Shown here: one piece after another, positions 2,347-35,668 of the stretch | Position numbering within the stretch: the first letter of the stretch is position 1 | How the letters are laid out: each line of letters begins with the position of its first letter | Virus record (IMG/VR): IMGVR_UViG_3300024999_000226 | Location: 1 to 38,413 of that record | Origin: a virus | Strand: one strand, 5' to 3' | DNA length: 38,413 bases | Notes under the pieces: generated by a model | The model's input: only the letters and a program-made list of their open reading frames with translations | Told to the model about the DNA's origin: nothing | The model's database searches: none | Program-made: the position numbers and the translations under genes

Positions 2347-2640
2347 CTACCTCCGCATGCTGGCCGCCCTGAGTTCGTCCCACCACTTGTCTCTACCGTG
2401 TCTGGTGAAAGCCCATATATTAATTCTAGAAACAACAAACGCCCCCCACCGCTCGCCTCTATTCATGGCTCGGTAATATGCTCGTTTTCTTATTGGCCTG
2501 CTGCCTCCATCAAACGAAGGACCGGAAAAGGCGAGGAATGGCGGTCCTTTCTTCTTGGTCTCAGCATAATTAAGCCCATCCGCCTTGGGCGCCGAATGCC
2601 TATAATATCTTGGTGGCGGTGCCGGTTCGCACTTGTTCAT
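2347..2640 (-). CDS. Hypothetical protein between NeuB and TerL
   Basis: This 97-residue protein is not recognised. It is basic and aromatic-rich, with a proline stretch near the start (EPAPPPRYYRH) and Trp/Arg pairs toward the C-terminus (HGRDKWWDELRAASMRR). Its ATG overlaps the TGA of the NeuB-like gene (ATGA), so translation is probably coupled. No cysteine motif or membrane segment is visible. It may have travelled with the synthase gene or may be an ordinary packaging-region gene. Confidence 0.6.
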   Translation of the reverse strand: MNKCEPAPPPRYYRHSAPKADGLNYAETKKKGPPFLAFSGPSFDGGSRPIRKRAYYRAMNRGERWGAFVVSRINIWAFTRHGRDKWWDELRAASMRR

Positions 2641-3617
2641 ACATCCCCCGGCCCGATCCCATCGCCCGCGGCAATCGCTGCCTTGGCGGTCTTGCCGTGA
2701 ACCTGACCAACGGCAAACGGGCTTAACCCTTTTATGTCGTCCTTCAGGCTCCTGTAAATTCCGAAGTTCACGCCCTCCTGGAGCACATCACCGGGAGCAA
2801 TGTCTCGTGTTGCGATCAGCCTCCGGTTATGCCGGGATACCATGTCGTTTTCTTCGCCAGTATACCCAATGCGAGGAACTAGGCTACCTCGAACGGCCTG
2901 CACCATGGTCTTAAACTGGTCGACGTTAAGCGAGTGGTCCCGGTCTGGCGTGTCCACGTCTGGAATTGCTGTGAAGTGCTTCTCTATTACCGCCGCACCC
3001 TTAACCGCTGCGCGCCTTGGAATCTCCGCAATGTCCAGCGTGTGGTCTGAGAATCCAACCGGGCGCTTGAAGCGCTTGCGAAGCAGGCTCATCACCCGAA
3101 GGTCAACGTGCTTTGCCGGGTAGTTCGCTACGCAGTACATAAGCGTGGTCGGCGTGCTTCCGAGGTGGTCCAGCGCATAACCTATGTCGTGCCCTCCGTG
3201 CGCTCCGGTGGAGAGAATCACGGGCTTGCCGTAGCCGCGGAGCTTTTCTAAAATCCTGATGTGGCTCATCTCAGCTGACGCCACCTTGTGTCGGGTCACG
3301 AACGGATTCACGGCGTCGTACAGTTCCGGACTGAACGCTGAGCACATGAACTCAATCCCAACCGAGTCGGCCTTTTGTTTCAAGTGTGGGAGCCAGTCGA
3401 GGGGAAGCGCACCGTCAAGCTTCGGCACGGGGTGGACATTGCCGCCGTCGTCGTCCGCCATGTAGGTGTGTGCTAATCCGTGTCCATAAAGCGAATACCA
3501 ATTAAACGCCTGAAACTTCACCGCGTCCGCTCCCGCTGCCTTGGCCATCGCAATCGAGTGCCGGCAGTCGTTCAGGTCGCGCCAATTTGAGCCGCATTCG
3601 GCCACGATAAACGTCAT
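2637..3617 (-). CDS. neuB: NeuB-family nonulosonic acid synthase
   Basis: Members condense phosphoenolpyruvate with a 6-carbon N-acyl amino sugar to make a 9-carbon nonulosonic acid (sialic, legionaminic or pseudaminic). All family landmarks are present in 326 residues. They are IVAECGSNW at the N-terminus, AGADAVKFQAF, KVASAEMSHIRIL, KPVILSTGAH, YCVANYPA, VGFSDHT, VIEKHFT and DRDHSL of the TIM barrel. A C-terminal SAF domain follows (RLIATRDIAPGDVL, GLSPFAVGQ). The start ATG 3617 is chosen because AGGAGAACAA precedes it and it overlaps the small terminase stop (ATGA). It is thus translationally coupled into the packaging operon, between TerS and TerL. Which acid it makes cannot be read from sequence alone. 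Confidence 0.92.
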   Translation of the reverse strand: MTFIVAECGSNWRDLNDCRHSIAMAKAAGADAVKFQAFNWYSLYGHGLAHTYMADDDGGNVHPVPKLDGALPLDWLPHLKQKADSVGIEFMCSAFSPELYDAVNPFVTRHKVASAEMSHIRILEKLRGYGKPVILSTGAHGGHDIGYALDHLGSTPTTLMYCVANYPAKHVDLRVMSLLRKRFKRPVGFSDHTLDIAEIPRRAAVKGAAVIEKHFTAIPDVDTPDRDHSLNVDQFKTMVQAVRGSLVPRIGYTGEENDMVSRHNRRLIATRDIAPGDVLQEGVNFGIYRSLKDDIKGLSPFAVGQVHGKTAKAAIAAGDGIGPGDV

Positions 3618-7432: not shown

Positions 7433-8344
7433 TTAAACGGTCTTCTTCTTGGGTTGCTCAACTTTGATTCCGGTAATCTCTTCAAATATCTTTGCGTCGA
7501 AAAATGGAAGACCCAAGAAAGCGTCCTTAACGTCCTGGTTGGATTTCTCCCAATAACCCCTCCACGCCTCTTTGTATTCGAGCTTCTTCAAATACCCGCC
7601 CGTGGTTTGTGCGTGAGGATATTTGCTCTGCTCATCTGCGGTCATCTCGGACAGATAAACCCACTGAGTGAGGCAAGGGCCAATGCCGAGAACCTTCTGA
7701 ATTCGCGGGTCTGTCCGAGGCACTTTAGAGTTACGGTTGAACAGGCGAACGTTAGGGGTGTTGGTGTTGAATAGGCCGGAGTTCCAGTCGCCGGAGTTAC
7801 TGTTGCCGGAGTTACTGTTGCCGGAGTTCCTGTAGCCGGAGTTCCAGTCGCCGGAGTTACTGTTGCCGGAGTTACTGTTGCCGGAGTTCCTGTAGCCGGA
7901 GTTCCAGTCGCCGGAGTTACTGTGGCCGGAGTTCCAGTTGCCGCTGTTCCTGTGGCCGCTGTTCCAGTTGCCGCTGTTCCAGTTGCCGCTGTTACTGTGG
8001 CCGCTGTTCCAGTTGCCGCTGTTCCCCTTCCCAAGATTCTTTAGCTTGGCGACGAGGTGATACGGCAGTGCCTTGGCCCACTGTTCTGCGGCCTGTCGGT
8101 CGTCCTTCTTGGCGTTCTGAGTGTCTATGACGAATTGGTCTTCGTCCGGTAGATACTCGTATTTGTTGCACGCGTCCTCGTTGATCCCGAAGTGGCTGCA
8201 AATCGCGGCGTGACTGTCTGCCTTCTCAATTTTGTTGCCGCCCTTATCGAGCAACTTTCCGGCGTTGATTAGCTTTCGCGCCTCAACATCGAAATATTTG
8301 AATTCACCATCACCTTTGCTTACATACGAAAAGAACTTGCACAT
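7433..8344 (-). CDS. Asn-rich pentapeptide-repeat protein
   Basis: This 303-residue protein has three parts. The N-terminal globular domain (about 1-105; MCKFFSYVSKGDGEFKYF) is like those often attached to phage pentapeptide proteins. Next come about 18 tandem five-residue units (about 106-197) of the form N-S-G-N/H/D-W/S, e.g. NWNSGHSNSG, expected to fold as a right-handed beta-helix. A C-terminal domain (about 205-303, QKVLGIGPCLTQWVYLSEM) follows. Start ATG 8344 has AAGGAGTAAGTAAA upstream. Such proteins can mimic DNA or bind other proteins, and a host-takeover role is inference. The repeat DNA is nearly identical between units, pointing to recent expansion. Confidence 0.8.
   Translation of the reverse strand: MCKFFSYVSKGDGEFKYFDVEARKLINAGKLLDKGGNKIEKADSHAAICSHFGINEDACNKYEYLPDEDQFVIDTQNAKKDDRQAAEQWAKALPYHLVAKLKNLGKGNSGNWNSGHSNSGNWNSGNWNSGHRNSGNWNSGHSNSGDWNSGYRNSGNSNSGNSNSGDWNSGYRNSGNSNSGNSNSGDWNSGLFNTNTPNVRLFNRNSKVPRTDPRIQKVLGIGPCLTQWVYLSEMTADEQSKYPHAQTTGGYLKKLEYKEAWRGYWEKSNQDVKDAFLGLPFFDAKIFEEITGIKVEQPKKKTV
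7771..8030 (-). repeat. 15-nt tandem repeat coding for the pentapeptide units
   Basis: The region is built of 15-nt units (plus-strand core CCGGAGTTACTGTTG and variants). Within it, 60 nt are repeated perfectly head to tail (7801..7860 equals 7861..7920). Units change from CCGGAGTT to CCGCTGTT toward 8030. Phase is kept at multiples of 15, so copy number can change without a frameshift. Confidence 0.85.
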
Positions 8345-9343: not shown

Positions 9344-9688
9344 TTAAACACCCACTGAGACGCACGAGGATTGCCCAGGCTGAATTTTCACCCCATTCTT
9401 CAAGGCCGAGGCCACATCGTCCAAACTTCTCGCAACGAACGCCAAACCGCCCGACCTCGAAACCGAGTCCAGGAACTCCCGCTGCTCCTCGCTCAGCCGT
9501 CCCTGTTGGGTCTTGATCTCGATTGCTAGGAACCGCCCATCTTTCAGAACCCCGATGATGTCCGAAATCCCCTTCCCAGAGTTCGACCGTCCACCGATCC
9601 CGCCTAGCTGAATCACCCGGTGGTAAATTCCGAGCGCATTCAGGTAATCTCGAATCTGCCTCTTGATCAGTCCCTCGGGTGTGGTCAT
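9344..9688 (-). CDS. VRR-NUC (PD-(D/E)XK) nuclease
   Basis: This 114-residue protein starts at ATG 9688, overlapping the stop of the HNH gene (ATGA). The VRR-NUC core is complete: PEGLIKRQIRDYLNALGI, GRSNSGKGISDIIGVL (Gly-rich turn and Asp) and FLAIEIKTQQGRLSEEQREFL (E-x-K catalytic pair plus downstream Gln). Stand-alone VRR-NUC proteins in phages are Holliday-junction or flap nucleases, often in the replication module as here. Confidence 0.85.
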   Translation of the reverse strand: MTTPEGLIKRQIRDYLNALGIYHRVIQLGGIGGRSNSGKGISDIIGVLKDGRFLAIEIKTQQGRLSEEQREFLDSVSRSGGLAFVARSLDDVASALKNGVKIQPGQSSCVSVGV

Positions 9689-9936
9689 CGGTAAATCCTC
9701 GGGCGCATTAGTTTCGAGCGGGGAATGATTCCCATCTCCCGGCAGAAGTCGAGTTCGTTCCAGTGAATTAGATCCGGCGAACGGTGCCCCGCGTGGCAGT
9801 CTACGCAGGCAAACTGGAGGTTCCGAACGTCGTCGATGAACTCCGGGTAAAGCTTCCGGTTCGCTTTGTGCTGCGGAAATTTGTGATGCCGCCCGACCAA
9901 GTAGATCGAATTGCAGATTTCGCATTTCAAAGCCAT
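9685..9936 (-). CDS. HNH-type nuclease, small
   Basis: This 83-residue protein starts at ATG 9936 after GGGAGGCCGC. The ligands and active-site layout of a compact HNH domain are visible: CEICNSIYLVGRHHKFPQH (C-x2-C then H-H), then VRNLQFACVDCHAGH (N, C-x2-C-H). It sits in an operon with VRR-NUC and the replication genes, so it is probably a resident phage gene, not a homing insertion. Confidence 0.8.
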   Translation of the reverse strand: MALKCEICNSIYLVGRHHKFPQHKANRKLYPEFIDDVRNLQFACVDCHAGHRSPDLIHWNELDFCREMGIIPRSKLMRPRIYR

Positions 9937-15024: not shown

Positions 15025-15789
15025 TCACTTTTTTCCTTTGCAGATTGAAAAGTATTCGCAGTATTTCGGGGAGCACTTCCAGTGGCCTTCAGAGATGAGC
15101 AGCGCAACTCCGGCTTGAATTGCCTTGTGGACCTGGGTGATCCCATTGAACAGCCAGGCGTGATCCGTCGCCGTGACTTGTCCAGAGATAGGCTTGTACT
15201 CGGGCGCGAGCTTCACGGTCGGGCGCGTGATGATATCGAAGCGGAATCCGTTCGCCGGTTTCCCTCGGATTGCCTGATACGCGAAGTCATACATGGCGGG
15301 CTGAAAAGCGCCGTTCACTGTGTAGCTGGATGCCCGTTGTCGGGAAGCGGTCTTCGTGTCGCCAATGAAGCCGGCTTTGTCGGTGTAGTCGATCGCGCCG
15401 GCCAGGTCGTACCCCGCATCGGTCTCAATGACGAACTGTTCCTGAACAGTCGCCGGCCGGATCAGGGGCGCGACGTGCTTGTGGTGGAACTCCATCACGC
15501 GGATTGCTGCGTCTTTCGCTGGGCCGGGCTGCTCCTCTTCGTCAAAGACGGTTTCCGGAAGGCGCTTTTCGAATTCCTCCGAACAAGTTTGCAGGACCTG
15601 ATCCAAGGGCATGTCTGCTCCGGACGTCACCTTTTGCGCGAAATTCGCACTCACTCCAGTGTCGACGCAGTTTCCAATCATCGCGGCAGCACTGCCCGGC
15701 ATCTTGATCTTATCGACGTAGCGGAAGACCCAGCTCATTCCACACATCAGAAACATTTTGATTTCAGACTGATGATACTTCGGCCTCAT
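15025..15789 (-). CDS. PD-(D/E)XK nuclease, Cas4/RecB-like with cysteine cluster
   Basis: This 254-residue protein carries YHQSEIKMFLMCGMSWVFRYVDKI at the N-terminus (first Cys), GAIDYTDKAGFIGDTKTASR (catalytic Asp and D-x-K) and VNGAFQPAMYDFAY (QxxxY). At the C-terminus it has CSPKYCEYFSIC, the Cys set that with the N-terminal Cys holds a 4Fe-4S cluster in Cas4/AddB-type nucleases. It is likely the 5'-3' exonuclease that feeds single strands to the annealing protein. Confidence 0.8.
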   Translation of the reverse strand: MRPKYHQSEIKMFLMCGMSWVFRYVDKIKMPGSAAAMIGNCVDTGVSANFAQKVTSGADMPLDQVLQTCSEEFEKRLPETVFDEEEQPGPAKDAAIRVMEFHHKHVAPLIRPATVQEQFVIETDAGYDLAGAIDYTDKAGFIGDTKTASRQRASSYTVNGAFQPAMYDFAYQAIRGKPANGFRFDIITRPTVKLAPEYKPISGQVTATDHAWLFNGITQVHKAIQAGVALLISEGHWKCSPKYCEYFSICKGKK

Positions 15790-18184: not shown

Positions 18185-18416
18185 CGTCCTTCTGCTCGCG
18201 CATCCACGCCGCAGCGTCATCAAGCACTTTGGGCTTTTTGCGTTCTTTTTGGCGCCTAAGCAGTAATGGCCCGCCCGGCACAGCAACAGGGGGTTGATGA
18301 GGATCCCGCTCTAGATATCGCATACACAACGCACGAGCGACGACCCACCCACTCAGCGCGCTTAACGCTAAACAGATGAGCGTCCAGATAACGACCGTCC
18401 CGATAGTAAAAGTCAC
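18165..18416 (-). CDS. Small N-terminally anchored membrane protein
   Basis: This 83-residue protein starts at GTG 18416 with GAGGG 8 nt upstream. The N-terminal membrane helix is TIGTVVIWTLICLALSALSGWVVA, followed by a basic cytoplasmic tail (RRQKERKKPK). It overlaps the last 161 nt of the acetyltransferase in another frame and its end overlaps the plus-strand gene by 20 nt. It reads like a genuine small membrane protein, which makes the long acetyltransferase tail suspect. Confidence 0.55.
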   Translation of the reverse strand: MTFTIGTVVIWTLICLALSALSGWVVARALCMRYLERDPHQPPVAVPGGPLLLRRQKERKKPKVLDDAAAWMREQKDAREPRA

Positions 18417-18858
18417 GCCTTACGCCCTCTTTCTGGAATCCAATTTTCTCAAACATCCGGCACGCTGCATTGCCTTCGAAAGACTCGCCCCATACGAGAT
18501 TAATCCCAAGCGTGTCAAACGCATGATCTAGAAGGGTTTGCAGCGCTTGCGATCCGAGCCCCTCGCCCTGGTGGTCCGGCGCGATGTACAAAGAGAATTC
18601 CGCCCGGTGATTCCAGGGGTCGATCGACGTAAGCCCGCAGACACCGACAGCCACGTTCCCAGAGTTGTAAATCATGTACATCTTGATTGCGGGATCCTCG
18701 GACTGTTTCCTAAACCACCGCTCTTGATCTACGTCTGAAATCAAGTCGTTCTGCCGGCAGGTTTTCCAAACGCGGTAATCATTTCTCCACGTCCGGAGCG
18801 TTTCATTGTGTCCGCTGTCGATGGGCCCCAGTCTTACGCCGCGCCCGTGATCAATCAT
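18256..18858 (-). CDS. GNAT acetyltransferase, PseH-like
   Basis: This 200-residue protein starts at ATG 18858 behind CGGAGATGATGAA. The GNAT core is clear: RLGPIDSGHNETLRTWRND, then FSLYIAPDHQGEGLGSQAL (acetyl-CoA loop QGEGLGS) and GNAACRMFEKIGFQKEGV near the end. This order and FSLYI-type strand are those of PseH/RimJ-like sugar N-acetyltransferases. These acetylate the C4 amine of UDP-4-amino-4,6-dideoxy sugars in pseudaminic and legionaminic acid synthesis. The family normally ends about residue 170; the last 30 residues (Cys/Arg-rich) overlap another gene and may be a read-on tail. It closes the sugar cluster. Confidence 0.8.
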   Translation of the reverse strand: MIDHGRGVRLGPIDSGHNETLRTWRNDYRVWKTCRQNDLISDVDQERWFRKQSEDPAIKMYMIYNSGNVAVGVCGLTSIDPWNHRAEFSLYIAPDHQGEGLGSQALQTLLDHAFDTLGINLVWGESFEGNAACRMFEKIGFQKEGVRRDFYYRDGRYLDAHLFSVKRAEWVGRRSCVVYAISRAGSSSTPCCCAGRAITA

Positions 18859-19145
18859 TTCATCATCTCCGCCACGGTTCGAGCCAACTTGACGACGTCA
18901 AGGATATTGGCGTTTTCACCGTCTGTAATTCCAACCCAAGCCTTGAGCTCTGCCTTGTACTCTTCTTTTCGCTTAGTGAGCTCTTGGGCTGCCGCGTCGA
19001 TTTTGTCTTGATACTCTTTTTCAAGTTCGCTTTTTTTCTGGGTGAACTCTTGGACGATTTCGCGCTTTTTGCCCTCGAAGATTGCGGCAAGGTCTGTGAT
19101 TTCTTCCTGACGTTTCGTGAAATGCTCGATTTTTTCATTGATCAT
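18855..19145 (-). CDS. Coiled-coil protein inside the sugar cluster
   Basis: This 96-residue protein starts at ATG 19145 after GAGGAAACT. It is a continuous coiled coil rich in Lys/Glu/Gln (REIVQEFTQKKSELEKEYQDK). Its ends overlap the aminotransferase stop and the acetyltransferase start, both as ATGA. No function recognised. It is the only non-enzyme in the cluster. Confidence 0.65.
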   Translation of the reverse strand: MINEKIEHFTKRQEEITDLAAIFEGKKREIVQEFTQKKSELEKEYQDKIDAAAQELTKRKEEYKAELKAWVGITDGENANILDVVKLARTVAEMMK

Positions 19146-20374
19146 AGTTTCCTCATTTTTGCCGCAAACGGCGTTGTTGGCATGTCGCCGGTTAGTTTCA
19201 CACTCCCGGTTTTGATTCGGGTCAAAACGTCTTGAGACGTGCTCAAAACCTCATCCATCACGTCGATGTGAGGGAAGTTGAAGAACCAACTAGGTCCGAA
19301 AATCACACCCGCGCGGCACATCTCCTGCCAGAACAGCGCCTTCACGAGTTCGTCACCCTTAAACGCTCCCCGGGTCGCGTAACCGTCGATCCGAAGTTTG
19401 TCCGGCCACATCGCATTAAACAGCGTCATGAACCGCCACCCCTTTTCCCAGAGGTGCCCAATATCGTACTTACCCGACTGGAGCAGGGTCATGGTTTTGA
19501 GCGCAGCCGCAAGCGACAAAGTTTCCCCAGCAAACGTGGAGCTGACGAACCACTCCCCGCAGTCCATGACCGCAGCCCGCCCCCCAACGACAGAAATGGG
19601 CATTCCGTTCCCCATGGCCTTACCCAGGCAGATCAGATCAGGCGTGATGCCCCAAAACCTCGAGACGCAGTATTTCTCGAACCGGAAACCTGTGATTACT
19701 TCGTCGAAAATCAGCAACGCACCGGACTCGTCGCATTTCTGGCGCAGAGCCTTTAACCACTCAATGCGATCCTTTGAGCCATCAAGAATAATCGGTTCAA
19801 CGATGACGCCGGCCACACCAGAAAAGTCCTGTGCGCCGAGCACATGAATCGCCTGCGGCATCGGAACGCCGAGCGCCGGCGGAGTAAGGGACACAAAGCC
19901 GTCATGCCATCCGTGATAGCCATCGCTTAAAATCAGATCCCGGCCGGTCTTTGCTCGAGCAATTCGCACCGCCGCCGAACAAGCATCACTGCCGGTTTTC
20001 AAAAACCGAATTTTGTCGATAAACGGAAACAGCTCTTTCACCTTCTCGGCAGTCCGCACCTCGAGGTCAGTTCCTAGCGACAGCGTTGCACCGCGGTTCG
20101 CCTGTTCCGCCATGGCTTGGTTTATCTCTGTATTTGCATACCCGAGGAGGTTCGACCCGAGCCCACAGATGAAATCAACGTACTTTTTCCCGTCGGTGTC
20201 CCATACGTGGCACCCCTGCCCCCTCGCAAGATGCGTTGGGTAGACTCCGTTGACAAGGCAGATCGGGCGCTTGCTGTTGGTCAGCGAGCCGTGAGCAATC
20301 GACTCCTCGGCTCTGTTTTGCCAGGTTTGATTCGTTTTTAATTCCTTAAAATCTGTGAACCGATTGTTTTCCAT
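19142..20374 (-). CDS. Class III PLP aminotransferase (glutamate-1-semialdehyde aminomutase-like)
   Basis: This 410-residue protein starts at ATG 20374 behind GGAGAAATTAC. The motifs are GCHVWDTDGKKYVDFICGLG, the phosphate-binding RFLKTGSDACSAAVRIAR, DGYHGWHDG, LLIFDEVITGFR (Asp to pyridine N) and ICLGKAMGNGMP (Schiff-base Lys). This is fold type I, class III. Ordinary PseC/LegC are DegT-family enzymes, so this is a different solution. HemL-like aminotransferases do occur beside SpsF and NeuB homologues in bacterial glycan islands. It likely aminates a keto-sugar made by the dehydratase at 21673. Confidence 0.85.
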   Translation of the reverse strand: MENNRFTDFKELKTNQTWQNRAEESIAHGSLTNSKRPICLVNGVYPTHLARGQGCHVWDTDGKKYVDFICGLGSNLLGYANTEINQAMAEQANRGATLSLGTDLEVRTAEKVKELFPFIDKIRFLKTGSDACSAAVRIARAKTGRDLILSDGYHGWHDGFVSLTPPALGVPMPQAIHVLGAQDFSGVAGVIVEPIILDGSKDRIEWLKALRQKCDESGALLIFDEVITGFRFEKYCVSRFWGITPDLICLGKAMGNGMPISVVGGRAAVMDCGEWFVSSTFAGETLSLAAALKTMTLLQSGKYDIGHLWEKGWRFMTLFNAMWPDKLRIDGYATRGAFKGDELVKALFWQEMCRAGVIFGPSWFFNFPHIDVMDEVLSTSQDVLTRIKTGSVKLTGDMPTTPFAAKMRKL

Positions 20375-21065
20375 GTAATTTCTCCGCTGTATCAATGGCC
20401 ATTTTCACGCGGTCGTATGCTGCACGAACGCGCTCAAGGTCTTCGATGGTATCAACTGACAACTTAAGATTCGACTGGTCGAGGTGCCCGATGACGTGCC
20501 CCACGCGTGCCCACTCTGGGGGGTTGGATCTCGCGTAGGTGGTCACGTGCTCGCGGTCCTTCGGTTCCGTGGCGTTTTTCAGCATGTAGTCGAGCATTCG
20601 GCGGGAAATAACCTCGCAATCAACTCCGTCAATAGAAGTTCTGCACTGCTCGTCCACGTTTGAAACGTAGTCATAGGCGTTAATCGTCGCTACCTTGATG
20701 TGTTTTGTGATCAGGTAGGGCGGAATCAGGGGGCAATCAGCCGTGATGCGGACGATGTAGTCGGCCCCAGTCCTGTCCGCGAGAATCCCGTAGCGCGCAA
20801 GAACGTCATGTTCCGGCCCCTCGATGATGATGGATTTCTTCTTGAACGCGGGAATGATCTCGTCTCCCGAAGGTACGGCGAGGGCCACCTTCACGAGGAC
20901 GTGCGTCTTGTGGGTGTGGTTGTTCATGTAGAACGCTGCTCGATCACACGAGTCAATGACATGCTTTAGGATGGGCTTTCCGTCGATGGTTTCAAACACC
21001 TTCCGTGGAAACCGCGTGGACGTGGAACGAGCCTGAATCCCGATGACTACTGTTGTGTATTCCAT
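20346..21065 (-). CDS. SpsF/NeuA-like cytidylyltransferase
   Basis: This 239-residue protein shows the CMP-sugar synthetase signature VVIGIQARSTSTRFPRKVF, a P-loop-like nucleotide site with K, and HDVLARYGILADRTGADYIVRITADCPLI (metal-binding D-C-P). Family members activate 3-deoxy-sugar acids (Neu5Ac, legionaminic, pseudaminic, Kdo) with CTP. SpsF forms are those of polysaccharide and spore-coat clusters. It overlaps the aminotransferase by 29 nt and the oxidoreductase by 19 nt, so it is one operon. Confidence 0.87.
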   Translation of the reverse strand: MEYTTVVIGIQARSTSTRFPRKVFETIDGKPILKHVIDSCDRAAFYMNNHTHKTHVLVKVALAVPSGDEIIPAFKKKSIIIEGPEHDVLARYGILADRTGADYIVRITADCPLIPPYLITKHIKVATINAYDYVSNVDEQCRTSIDGVDCEVISRRMLDYMLKNATEPKDREHVTTYARSNPPEWARVGHVIGHLDQSNLKLSVDTIEDLERVRAAYDRVKMAIDTAEKLHGKQSVHRF

Positions 21066-21673
21066 TTCTTCTTGTCCATTTCCGCGGTTCTTTCATGAGC
21101 CGCTAGCAATTCTCCCAAGTCCTGCTGTGGCTCGGAGAACCATTTCTGCATGTAACCGATATAAGCCGCATCCATGTGGTCTAGGCGAATGGGCCGGCCA
21201 TTGAGGGTGCAGCGCCAAATCGGGCTTGTTTCAGCGATGGTCACCTCACCTCGTGCGATGCCGATGATCTGCAAACAGTCCCAATAAATTCCATCTGCAC
21301 CATGCTTGAAGTAGTTGTAATGGGATCGCCCGTAAGACGTCGGGGTGTCGAGCATCTTGTACTGGTTGATCATGCGAAATGGAGTTTTGGACTCCTTGAT
21401 TTCGTCAAACAGCGCCTTTAACTCCTGAGGATTTTTAATAATTGGCTTTTCGCAGAGAATGGGTACCCTGTGCGGCAAAAATAGTCTTACGTGCTCAGCG
21501 TGAAGCGCTGTCGGGGTGGCGATAATAACCCCCTCAGACTGCCTAGCCCGGTCACAGATGTACGGCGCGCTGTGCTCTTTATCGACGCCCACGTATTCCT
21601 TGCCGAGATAATCGAGAATGGCCCGATACCTGCGCCCCATGTTCCCGTTTGCGCCAACGAGAAGAATTGACAT
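21047..21673 (-). CDS. Gfo/Idh/MocA-family oxidoreductase, short form
   Basis: This 208-residue protein has an N-terminal Rossmann fold (MSILLVGANGNMGRRYRAI) and the family's substrate-side motif VPILCEKPIIKN (E-K-P). The usual C-terminal alpha/beta domain is much reduced, since normal members are 330-380 residues. Close relatives such as PtmF sit in legionaminic acid loci. It may reduce or oxidise a sugar intermediate, or bind one. Start ATG 21673 shares a base with the dehydratase stop. Confidence 0.75.
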   Translation of the reverse strand: MSILLVGANGNMGRRYRAILDYLGKEYVGVDKEHSAPYICDRARQSEGVIIATPTALHAEHVRLFLPHRVPILCEKPIIKNPQELKALFDEIKESKTPFRMINQYKMLDTPTSYGRSHYNYFKHGADGIYWDCLQIIGIARGEVTIAETSPIWRCTLNGRPIRLDHMDAAYIGYMQKWFSEPQQDLGELLAAHERTAEMDKKKWNTQQ

Positions 21674-22530
21674 TACGAATTCCCCACGATCGGACGGAGC
21701 AACGAAACGAGCTCAAGTTCTGAGTATTGCGCAGAGGAGTCAGACACGAGCCCCGGCAAAAGCGTCTCGTGGATTTTTTCGCCCTGGCGAATACCGAGCG
21801 AAACAATGTCGTACTTGGTTGCTCCGACGATCTTGGCAACCGCAGCGATTACGCTTTTTACGGGTGCGGCCTTTATCGGAGGAATGTTGACAGCGTGGTG
21901 CCGATAATAGTTCTCGATCATGAACTCGGCGGCGTCCTCAATGCGGATCCAAAACCGGGTCATATCCGGATCGGTGAGATAGGCTTTGTTTTCAGTTATC
22001 AACGTTTTTGCGAACACTCCAATCACGGAGCCACGGGAACCGAGCACATTACCCCACCGAAACACGCTGAATCGCGTGGTGTGCTGGGTGTGGTTCAGCC
22101 GAAGCAGAATCTTTTCAGCGATGCCCTTGCACATACCGTAAACGTTGCATGGTGCAACCGCTTTATCCGTGGAGCTGAACACCACAAATGGCACGTTCGC
22201 ACCGATTGCTGCATCCGCGACGTTCATCACCCCGAGGATGTTTGTCTTTACGGACTCCTCTGGATTTTCCTCTAACGTGTCCACGTGTTTGAGAGCCGCC
22301 AGGAGATAGACGACATCCACGTTGACCATAGCGCGATCAAGAGCGCCGCGGTCGCGCATATCGCCAATGACAAAGCGAAGGTTTGGACTATTCGCAAACT
22401 CTTGCGCCACCTGCTTCTGCTTGAGCTCGTCCCTTGAAAAGCAGACGACATCGTTTTTACCGTTCTCAAGTAGCCTTTTAATGACCTCACGGCCGAGGGT
22501 TCCAGTCCCTCCGATGATTAGGTAGTTCAC
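21673..22530 (-). CDS. NAD-dependent sugar dehydratase, PseB/CapD-like
   Basis: This 285-residue protein starts at GTG 22530 (GTGA overlap with the membrane protein). It has the NAD loop YLIIGGTGTLGREVIKRLL, AALKHVDTLEENPEESVKTNI, the active site SSTDKAVAPCNVYGMCK (S-x-DK and Y-x3-K), RWGNVLGSRGSV, and MTRFWI. These are the landmarks of UDP-GlcNAc 4,6-dehydratases of the PseB/FlaA1/CapD type, the first step toward pseudaminic acid. It lacks the extra membrane part of CapD, so it is a soluble PseB-like form. The step is inferred from family. Confidence 0.85.
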   Translation of the reverse strand: MNYLIIGGTGTLGREVIKRLLENGKNDVVCFSRDELKQKQVAQEFANSPNLRFVIGDMRDRGALDRAMVNVDVVYLLAALKHVDTLEENPEESVKTNILGVMNVADAAIGANVPFVVFSSTDKAVAPCNVYGMCKGIAEKILLRLNHTQHTTRFSVFRWGNVLGSRGSVIGVFAKTLITENKAYLTDPDMTRFWIRIEDAAEFMIENYYRHHAVNIPPIKAAPVKSVIAAVAKIVGATKYDIVSLGIRQGEKIHETLLPGLVSDSSAQYSELELVSLLRPIVGNS

Positions 22531-22733
22531 GCAATGCCCCTCGGAGATCTGAGCAACACGTCTTCCGGGTTAACCCGAGACACACGCACAAGCGCATCAC
22601 CCCGCGTCAGGTCGTGAATGAGTAATCTTGCGTCGTAGGAGGGTTCTTTGTTTGGTGCTTTGATTTTGAGCCACAAAAAGACGTTGGCGCATAAAGAAAG
22701 GACGAGGGCTATTCCACAACCGAAAAGCAGCAT
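22527..22733 (-). CDS. Small N-terminal membrane protein
   Basis: This 68-residue protein starts at ATG 22733 (GGGAG 8 nt before). The frame also opens at 22775 but that lies in a hairpin region. It has one N-terminal membrane helix (MLLFGCGIALVLSLCANVFLWL), then a polar tail. It is the first gene of the sugar operon, coupled to the dehydratase by GTGA. It might be a lysis accessory or a membrane anchor for glycan enzymes. Confidence 0.6.
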   Translation of the reverse strand: MLLFGCGIALVLSLCANVFLWLKIKAPNKEPSYDARLLIHDLTRGDALVRVSRVNPEDVLLRSPRGIA

Positions 22734-22736
22734 CTG

Positions 22737-22757
22737 TAAATCTCCCGTAAGTAAGTT
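22737..22757 (-). repeat. Degenerate late-junction repeat (TAAATC / TAAGTT)
   Basis: TAAATC at 22737 and TAAGTT at 22752 are 15 nt apart, with CTGTAA at 22734. This is a weak member of the hexamer series seen at 930, 2314, 25738 and 36922, again just before a late gene. Confidence 0.35.
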
Positions 22758-22799
22758 ATCTTGCACGATCATCATGCATTACATGTCATAGTGCAAGAT
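22758..22799. promoter_or_regulatory. Long inverted repeat upstream of the sugar operon
   Basis: ATCTTGCAC (22758..22766) and GTGCAAGAT (22791..22799) are perfect 9-bp arms around a 24-nt AT-rich loop. A second short dyad (TATGCA/TGCATA) lies further right. There is no T-run after it, so a simple terminator is unlikely. An operator or an RNA hairpin in the leader of the 22733 gene is more likely. Confidence 0.45.
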
Positions 22800-34268: not shown

Positions 34269-34733
34269 TTAAGGCAGATTAACGCGCAACAGCCCGCTGT
34301 TGCCGCTCACGATCGCAGTCGTCAGCTCCCCAACGGGGAACATTCCGGCTGCAATGGTGCAAGCGCCAACGCCAAGGGGGCCTACGCCCTTGACTCCTGC
34401 GGCCTGGTCAGACGCGCTAGACGCCACGGTAATGGTCAGAAGCCCTCGTGTGAGGGCCCAGCCATATTCACCGGACGGGATAGCGACGTGCTTGACAAAG
34501 CCGAGGCACATGTCGCCGGATACGGCAGAAACCGAACCCGAATACATGCCAGCAAACGCCGAGATCGGACGAGTCATGCCGCACGCCACGCCCGCGGTGC
34601 TTCCACCGCAGTTGTAGACATACACGTACTTCTCGCCAGACTCGATGCGCTCAGTACCCAAGGCCACCGTGGGAACCGCGGTAACCATCGAAACCGAGTC
34701 AAACAGAATAGGAGCAACACCTTGATAGCTCAT
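34269..34733 (-). CDS. Head decoration-like protein
   Basis: This 154-residue protein starts at ATG 34733 behind AAGGAGGGAGATCACA, one of the best ribosome sites in the window. It is Gly/Ser/Ala/Val-rich with strands (YVYVYNCGGSTAGVACGMTR, GYWALTRG-like turn). It directly follows the major capsid gene, a place usually held by a decoration or minor capsid protein. High expression is expected from the ribosome site and the terminator after it. Confidence 0.65.
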   Translation of the reverse strand: MSYQGVAPILFDSVSMVTAVPTVALGTERIESGEKYVYVYNCGGSTAGVACGMTRPISAFAGMYSGSVSAVSGDMCLGFVKHVAIPSGEYGWALTRGLLTITVASSASDQAAGVKGVGPLGVGACTIAAGMFPVGELTTAIVSGNSGLLRVNLP

Positions 34734-34747
34734 TGTGATCTCCCTCC

Positions 34748-35668
34748 TTATGCCGTGGTGGCCGACAAGCGACCATGCAGGCGGTTATTGGACGAACCCA
34801 GTGCGCCAGCCCAGAAGATCTTGGCGACCTTCACATTCTGGTTGATGGGCTTCATGAACGGTTCGAACCGCATGTCCTCGTCTTTGTGGACGAAGAGGTG
34901 CAGATAGTTCTCGTTCAAGAAGAACATGTTACTGGCCGGGCAGTAGCTGTCCGCGATCACGGGCTTACCGTTGAACATCAGAGAACTAAACCCGCCCTTG
35001 ACCGTTTCGCTGTCCATGAACCGCTGCTGCGGCTGGAGCAACCCGTAGTACGAGTTATACAGCGTGCGCGTCGTGATGATGAGGGTCGGCGCATCGTTGT
35101 TAACAGTACACGCGTTATCGCGGCTCTGCATGGCTGCGATGGAAAGGGTCGTGGTGGTTGAGTCCACCTGCGCCTGCCACCATGAATAGCTGGTCTGCGA
35201 AATACCGCCAACCGTCTGATCGACGGCGACGATGTCGCGCAAGCCAACAATGGATTTAGAGTCAGTGCCGTCCGAATAAAGGCCGGTACCGAGCTTGTCG
35301 TCCATGGTCTTCTCGGCGATCTTCACCTTGTTTTTCACAAGGCTCAAAATCTGAGAGTCGCCCGAGTTTTTCAGCTCATCAATGCGATTGATGCTGATAT
35401 TCGCGTACAGCTGTTTCCAGGTGTACTCAGCCGCCGTGATGATCTCGTTATCGGTCGTCTGGAGCGTTTCCGAACCAGTGTACCAGCCACTCGAAGTCAC
35501 CTGAGCATAGTTGAGCGGTACAACAATGCGCTCGCCGCCGTCCACCTTCTCGTAGAACTTCTTTTTAGCTCTCTGGAGAAGAGGGTTGGAGTCGAACACC
35601 GCGTCGTACAGCTTAGGAATGAACTTTTTCTGCGTGATCGCAGAAATTTGATCATACGTTAAAGCCAT
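34748..35668 (-). CDS. Major capsid protein
   Basis: This 306-residue protein starts at ATG 35668 with GGGGGTAAT upstream. HK97-type features are an N-arm (DQISAITQKKFIPKLYDAVF), the E-loop region (YEKVDGGERIVVPLNYAQV), a P-domain helix (LVKNKVKIAEKTMDDKLG) and A-domain motifs (CTVNNDAPTLIITTRTLYN, SLMFNGKPVIADSYC). It lies after the scaffold gene. No prohead protease gene is seen. The fold assignment is by pattern. Confidence 0.85.
   Translation of the reverse strand: MALTYDQISAITQKKFIPKLYDAVFDSNPLLQRAKKKFYEKVDGGERIVVPLNYAQVTSSGWYTGSETLQTTDNEIITAAEYTWKQLYANISINRIDELKNSGDSQILSLVKNKVKIAEKTMDDKLGTGLYSDGTDSKSIVGLRDIVAVDQTVGGISQTSYSWWQAQVDSTTTTLSIAAMQSRDNACTVNNDAPTLIITTRTLYNSYYGLLQPQQRFMDSETVKGGFSSLMFNGKPVIADSYCPASNMFFLNENYLHLFVHKDEDMRFEPFMKPINQNVKVAKIFWAGALGSSNNRLHGRLSATTA

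Follow-up and report, generated by a model that had tools for sequence, protein, structure and literature searches.

The window analysed here, the whole 38,413-nt stretch of the IMG/VR virus record IMGVR_UViG_3300024999_000226, encodes a P22/SU10-like portal and an SU10-type adaptor, together with predicted enzymes for a nonulosonic (sialic-acid-like) acid and a Maf-like glycosyltransferase (Table 1). Most of the sugar genes lie in a seven-gene minus-strand cassette that runs from 22775 to 18256 in the order membrane-type protein, PseB-like dehydratase, short Gfo/Idh-type protein, SpsF-like cytidine monophosphate (CMP)-transferase, class III aminotransferase, coiled-coil-like protein and GNAT acetyltransferase. 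A preliminary description of this DNA had placed five sugar genes in one operon, and cassette neighbours do overlap head to tail by 1-50 bp, the pattern of a translationally coupled operon. It had also assigned a NeuB-type synthase to the packaging operon; this gene sits between those for the small and large terminase subunits, and its start at 3617 is preceded by a Shine-Dalgarno-like GGAG. All six enzymes it named are intact open reading frames (ORFs) with profile matches at family level. It had not listed the two small cassette genes or the Maf-like gene, which directly follows the major capsid and capsid-decoration genes.

Table 1. Sugar-module and capsid-block features of the window.
Feature	Coordinates	Strand	Basis
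NeuB-family (PEP-condensing) synthase with SAF domain	2637..3617	-	PF03102 E 7e-52, PF08666
GNAT acetyltransferase, PseH-like	18256..18858	-	PF13302 E 5e-18
Small coiled-coil-like protein	18855..19145	-	
Class III (glutamate-1-semialdehyde-aminomutase-like) aminotransferase	19142..20395	-	PF00202 E 2e-44
SpsF-like CMP-sugar (cytidylyl) transferase	20346..21065	-	PF02348 E 3e-15
Short Gfo/Idh/MocA-type oxidoreductase, 208 aa	21047..21673	-	PF01408 E 2e-9, residues 45-97 only
PseB/FlaA1-like UDP-HexNAc 4,6-dehydratase	21673..22530	-	PF02719 (Polysacc_synt_2) E 7e-71
Small membrane-type protein	22527..22775	-	Hydrophobic N-terminal stretch
Maf/MptE-like glycosyltransferase (predicted), 337 aa	33195..34208	-	PF01973 E 5e-19; downstream of decoration gene
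Capsid decoration/cement protein, candidate glycan acceptor	34269..34733	-	AlphaFold2 all-beta model, pLDDT 72 (moderate trust)
Major capsid protein, alternative candidate acceptor	34748..35668	-	Position and conservation

The individual enzymes can be placed with some precision. The closest Protein Data Bank (PDB) entries to the synthase are SpsE (1vli) and PseI (8h2c), and the catalytic motifs of a NeuB enzyme (E-x-GSN, K-AS, C..YP, SDH[TS] and EKH), as expected of a nonulosonic pathway, are present and retained in most relatives. The dehydratase is most similar in the PDB to FlaA1 (2gn4, E 2e-53), whose DK...Y..K motif it keeps and shares with its relatives; against the PseB equivalog TIGR03589 it scores 240 bits, short of the cut-off of 408. 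For the acetyltransferase the best NCBIfam match is PseH (TIGR03585), again below the cut-off (80.7 against 93.1 bits). The CMP-transferase best matches the cytidylyltransferase 6oew (E 2e-14), and the class III enzyme, in which the GKA motif of the pyridoxal phosphate lysine is conserved, matches glutamate-1-semialdehyde aminomutase (GSAM; 3l44, E 3e-44). The short Gfo-type protein has motifs of its own (CEKP, QY, WDC and SPxW) that are conserved within the lineage. A search for its bacterial source in 399 genomes, from the phylum of a Sphingomonadales metagenome-assembled genome (MAG), found no close counterpart; it returned only generic full-length Gfo/Idh proteins, matching over the EKP region.

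The Maf-like gene probably supplies what the preliminary description did not offer, a use for the sugar. In a PDB sequence search the Magnetospirillum Maf protein 5mu5 was the sole match below E 0.1 (E 0.007 with the single sequence, 1.4e-4 with a 20-sequence profile). An AlphaFold2 model of high confidence (pLDDT 91.2) placed 5mu5 first in Foldseek (E 2e-10), ahead of the archaeal MptE-type pyrophosphokinase 8sd5 (3.5e-5) and human ST8SiaIII (3.4e-4). The last is a sialyltransferase whose structure was solved with an analogue of CMP-sialic acid, the donor that sialyltransferases use. By both its PF01973 match and its fold, the phage protein has the catalytic domain (MAF_flag10) of the Maf family; the flanking N- and C-terminal domains of these proteins of more than 600 residues are absent from its 337 residues, compared with 666 in the 5mu5 chain. 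We think it very improbable that this protein is instead a phage pyrophosphokinase or a structural protein, with the sugar cassette serving some other end. The second-ranked fold match to an MptE pyrophosphokinase and the MptE-like Pfam name speak for that assignment, but the Maf match is better by five orders of magnitude in Foldseek E-value and is the only one below E 0.1 at sequence level. Each of the 16 long contigs that the Maf profile brought in, moreover, also has NeuB, and the pair recurs in an unrelated phage, L084, described below.

The gene immediately upstream of the Maf-like gene encodes a protein whose structural model finds, as its leading Foldseek matches, phage cement and head-fibre proteins, namely those of Pam3 (E 1.8e-4), TW1, phi29 (gp8.5) and T1. 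Serine and threonine make up 17.5% of its residues in the window and 19.6% on average in the family. The adjoining major capsid protein has no Pfam match. Known Maf enzymes O-glycosylate Ser/Thr residues of flagellin with CMP-activated nonulosonic acids, and they also accept sites grafted onto a beta-sandwich protein (PMC11339370).

Taken together, these genes probably (at a rough probability of 0.6) form a phage-encoded protein-glycosylation module in which a Maf-like enzyme modifies a virion protein with a nonulosonic acid. This likelihood and those of the other explanations are not exclusive, because the alternative of an unusual sugar shares the virion target. Late in infection, the cassette and NeuB would turn host UDP-N-acetylhexosamine (UDP-HexNAc) into a nonulosonic-type acid by way of a 4-keto-6-deoxy sugar, acylation and then condensation with phosphoenolpyruvate (PEP), with the hydrolase step supplied by one or more host enzymes or by an unrecognised phage enzyme. 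The CMP-transferase would activate the acid, and the Maf-like transferase, expressed with the capsid, would transfer it from CMP to Ser/Thr residues of a structural protein, the best candidates being the decoration protein and the major capsid protein, so that virions would carry acidic sugars. Which sugar is made, when amino transfer and redox chemistry take place along the route, which protein accepts the glycan and what the phage gains are inferred here, and the argument for a glycan on a structural protein is one of gene position and co-conservation.

That co-conservation is extensive. IMG/VR scans that used the aminotransferase, the Maf-like protein and the capsid protein as queries revealed a large uncultivated lineage (80 of 169 Maf relatives were kept), in which near-complete status was judged on length alone. 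The preliminary description had looked to recurrence of its gene set across viral contigs, and the set does recur: of the 19 contigs that reach 33.9 kb, a count that takes in the window, 18 have the full complement of seven enzymes (NeuB, Maf, PseB-like, Gfo-type, CMP-transferase, aminotransferase and GNAT), which is far beyond chance. Maf is present in 89 contigs of the gene map (window included), 83 of them with a capsid gene, and the order capsid–decoration–Maf holds in 83/83 contigs that have both the major capsid protein and Maf. Among contigs recruited by the capsid protein alone, 13/13 have Maf after the decoration gene. Maf and NeuB, the two genes analysed in this way because the other cassette genes of the lineage offered no suitable pair, are under purifying selection, with ratios of nonsynonymous to synonymous change (dN/dS) in the closest pairs of 0.05 and 0.08, respectively, and 0.19 in a more distant NeuB pair. 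The sugar genes are genuine and phage-owned. A search of genome contigs for a host gave one close match (61%), on a 3.5-kb contig binned in an Actinomycetota MAG that may be a misbinned phage contig; all others were below 30%. Isolated phages in INPHARED gave no Maf match, all aminotransferase matches there were below 60%, and the best place for the large terminase was at 25%.

The main rival explanation directs the same chemistry at the host: the sugar and the Maf-like enzyme would modify flagellin, pilin, lipopolysaccharide (LPS) or the S-layer, so that the receptor is altered and superinfection blocked. In its favour are the integrase gene of the window, the frequent occurrence of nonulosonic acids in the O-antigens and flagella of bacteria, and the action of known Maf enzymes on flagellin (PMC11339370, PMC4065374). 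Against this stands the fixed position of Maf behind the capsid and decoration genes, which together with a synthase in the packaging block leads us to presume late expression. Nothing in the window was recognised as a flippase, a polymerase or a membrane glycosyltransferase. The integrase family, furthermore, was found in just 8 of the 27 contigs that are 26 kb or longer, so the module persists where lysogeny does not and has the better claim to be a core function. An ordinary lysogenic-conversion moron was rejected as an explanation, the set being better conserved than the integrase, and we regard modification of the host surface as unlikely.

Several observations weigh against glycosylation of the virion with a nonulosonic acid. 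The relatives are all uncultured. Most of their contigs were recruited by Maf itself, which makes its presence in them trivial. The TM-scores of the Maf-like model are moderate (0.48 to 5mu5), and archaeal MptE pyrophosphokinases also belong to PF01973. None of the enzymes passes a Pse, Leg or Neu equivalog cut-off. A PseG-type hydrolase (TIGR03590, E 0.01) was found in 0/37 phage records, a search in which the LegG and NeuC models were not run, and a DegT aminotransferase (PF01041) is absent from the window and its lineage; five unrelated phages do have one. PseC belongs to the DegT type. With no PseG-type hydrolase found, and no DegT-type 4-aminotransferase (PseC or LegC) of the pseudaminic and legionaminic branches, the route is not a known complete one. 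All-against-all clustering found no conserved extra enzyme near the cassette, the recurrent families lying mostly in the head/tail block.

These gaps revise the preliminary description, which held that every step but the hydrolase was represented and that production of a CMP-nonulosonic acid was self-sufficient. The first claim mapped the class III enzyme onto the PseC step, but this enzyme probably acts at a different point, near CMP activation, because five unrelated phages that have a DegT aminotransferase keep it as well, fused to the CMP-transferase. The second is unsupported, in view of the missing PseG-type hydrolase and of the need for UDP-GlcNAc, PEP and cytidine triphosphate (CTP), which must come from the host. 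What does stand is the broader claim that the phage encodes a nonulosonic-type pathway: it is well supported by the NeuB motifs, the PseB-like dehydratase, the SpsF-like CMP-transferase and the lineage-wide conservation. The product is best named simply a nonulosonic-type acid.

True glycosylation of the virion with a different sugar has also to be weighed, be it a Kdo-like or Kdn-like acid or a novel amino-acylated 3-deoxy-ulosonic acid whose synthesis would involve the Gfo-type enzyme together with the class III aminotransferase. The missing DegT and PseG enzymes favour such a sugar, as does the additional match of the CMP-transferase to KdsB in the NCBIfam search. At the specificity position of NeuB, where Neu/Leg enzymes have Gly and those of the Pse type Phe (PMC7371886), most of the window lineage has neither but Ala, Ser or Asn; CMP-Kdo, in addition, is used by CbMaf (PMC11339370). 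A PseB-like dehydratase and a PseH-like GNAT, on the other hand, suit a 6-deoxy, N-acylated C9 sugar, and the HAD phosphatase needed by a Kdo- or Kdn-phosphate route was not recognised. On balance we judge a sugar of this other kind to be rather unlikely.

A bolder version of the virion-glycosylation reading, to which we give somewhat less than an even chance, is that this uncultivated tailed-phage lineage makes an undescribed ulosonic acid by a route that is free of PseC and PseG and uses a class III aminotransferase and a short Gfo-type enzyme, and that a Maf-family transferase of minimal size coats the capsid with it. It would be the first phage lineage in which the greater part of a sialic-acid-like donor pathway, along with transfer to protein, belongs to the core functions of virion assembly. 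If so, virions display a phage-made sialic-acid-like sugar of bacterial type, which would change how phage capsids are viewed with respect to charge, stability, surface binding and evasion of defences or predators. A Maf enzyme pared down to a single domain would be seen to act on a protein other than flagellin, and a new route to CMP-ulosonic acids might be revealed. As the lineage keeps the module in almost every genome, the purpose of phage shell glycosylation would become testable. In the open-access literature we found neither a Maf enzyme described from a phage nor a phage capsid described as carrying nonulosonic acid; a paper on a B. megaterium phage that mentions nonulosonic acid merely cites a KDNase reference.

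Known systems offer partial parallels. Maf-dependent flagellin O-glycosylation in Campylobacter, Aeromonas, Clostridium and Magnetospirillum also combines a NeuB-type synthase, a CMP-transferase and a Maf-family enzyme, and glycosylates protein in the cytoplasm with nonulosonic acids, as is predicted for the phage. The window differs in being phage-encoded, in its much shorter Maf-like protein, in the position of this gene beside capsid rather than flagellin genes, and in having a class III aminotransferase and a short Gfo-type enzyme instead of PseC and PseG. The sps operon of B. subtilis, for the legionaminic acid of the spore crust (PMC7439481), shares an SpsE-like synthase, an SpsF-like CMP-transferase and a GNAT protein, and there too a particle is sugar-coated, as we predict for the phage; the window has a Maf-family transferase, and no counterpart of SpsC (DegT) or of the SpsG hydrolase was found in it. 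The class III enzyme has bacterial company in the O-antigen cluster of Legionella pneumophila Sg6/Sg12, where a GSAM-like protein, a GNAT protein, PseG and an acylneuraminate cytidylyltransferase occur together (PMC3694923), although that cluster includes PseG, serves LPS and is chromosomal. Among phages, the cluster F1 mycobacteriophage Maravista has two putative glycosyltransferases whose suggested target is the capsid protein (PMC11256854). Such mycobacteriophages share with the window a phage-encoded transferase thought to modify capsid proteins; glycosyltransferases alone are reported for them, whereas in the window phage a Maf-family enzyme is accompanied by the greater part of a pathway for the donor sugar.

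Related kits occur in other phages. L084 (JAGXTB010000072), a 65.6-kb contig in a Sphingomonadales MAG, has a lambda-type portal and is unrelated to the window phage, yet its head/tail genes include two Maf-like proteins, NeuB, a NeuA-like CMP-transferase and a GDP-mannose-dehydratase-like protein, so the combination of NeuB and Maf originated or spread on at least two occasions. In its Maf region L084 shows no difference from a same-sized IMG/VR virus contig (L214, IMGVR_UViG_3300001798_000009), the only contig returned by an IMG/VR scan with the L084 Maf. In six further unrelated phages (L007, L008, L009, L010, L012 and L014) the CMP-transferase and the class III aminotransferase form one fusion protein. 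The DegT enzyme is also present in five of these, the sixth being a short contig with no DegT gene in reach; the NeuB specificity residue is Phe in most, and none has a PF01973 match. They represent a second, different phage ulosonic-acid kit. A distant relative of the window phage (L006, IMGVR_UViG_3300035698_001676) has NeuB, a PseB-like protein, the class III aminotransferase, a GNAT protein and the CMP-transferase inside its structural block, with an aldo/keto reductase where the window has its Gfo-type gene, and no PF01973 match.

The record probably closes on itself, since the first and last ORFs of the window encode the same portal stretch; against this, no exact end repeat of 11-400 bases was found. 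In the cassette, the coiled-coil-like gene has no Pfam, NCBIfam or PHROG match, and its family, with 5 members in the contig set, is present in a minority of relatives. The membrane-type gene lies directly upstream of the sugar genes in most cassette-bearing relatives, and may encode a lysis protein or a part of the sugar module. Elsewhere in the window, a 303-aa protein (7433..8344) has NSGNWNSG-type pentapeptide repeats (PF01469), and the early region encodes a VRR-NUC domain protein (9344..9925) and a PD-(D/E)XK nuclease (15025..15789).

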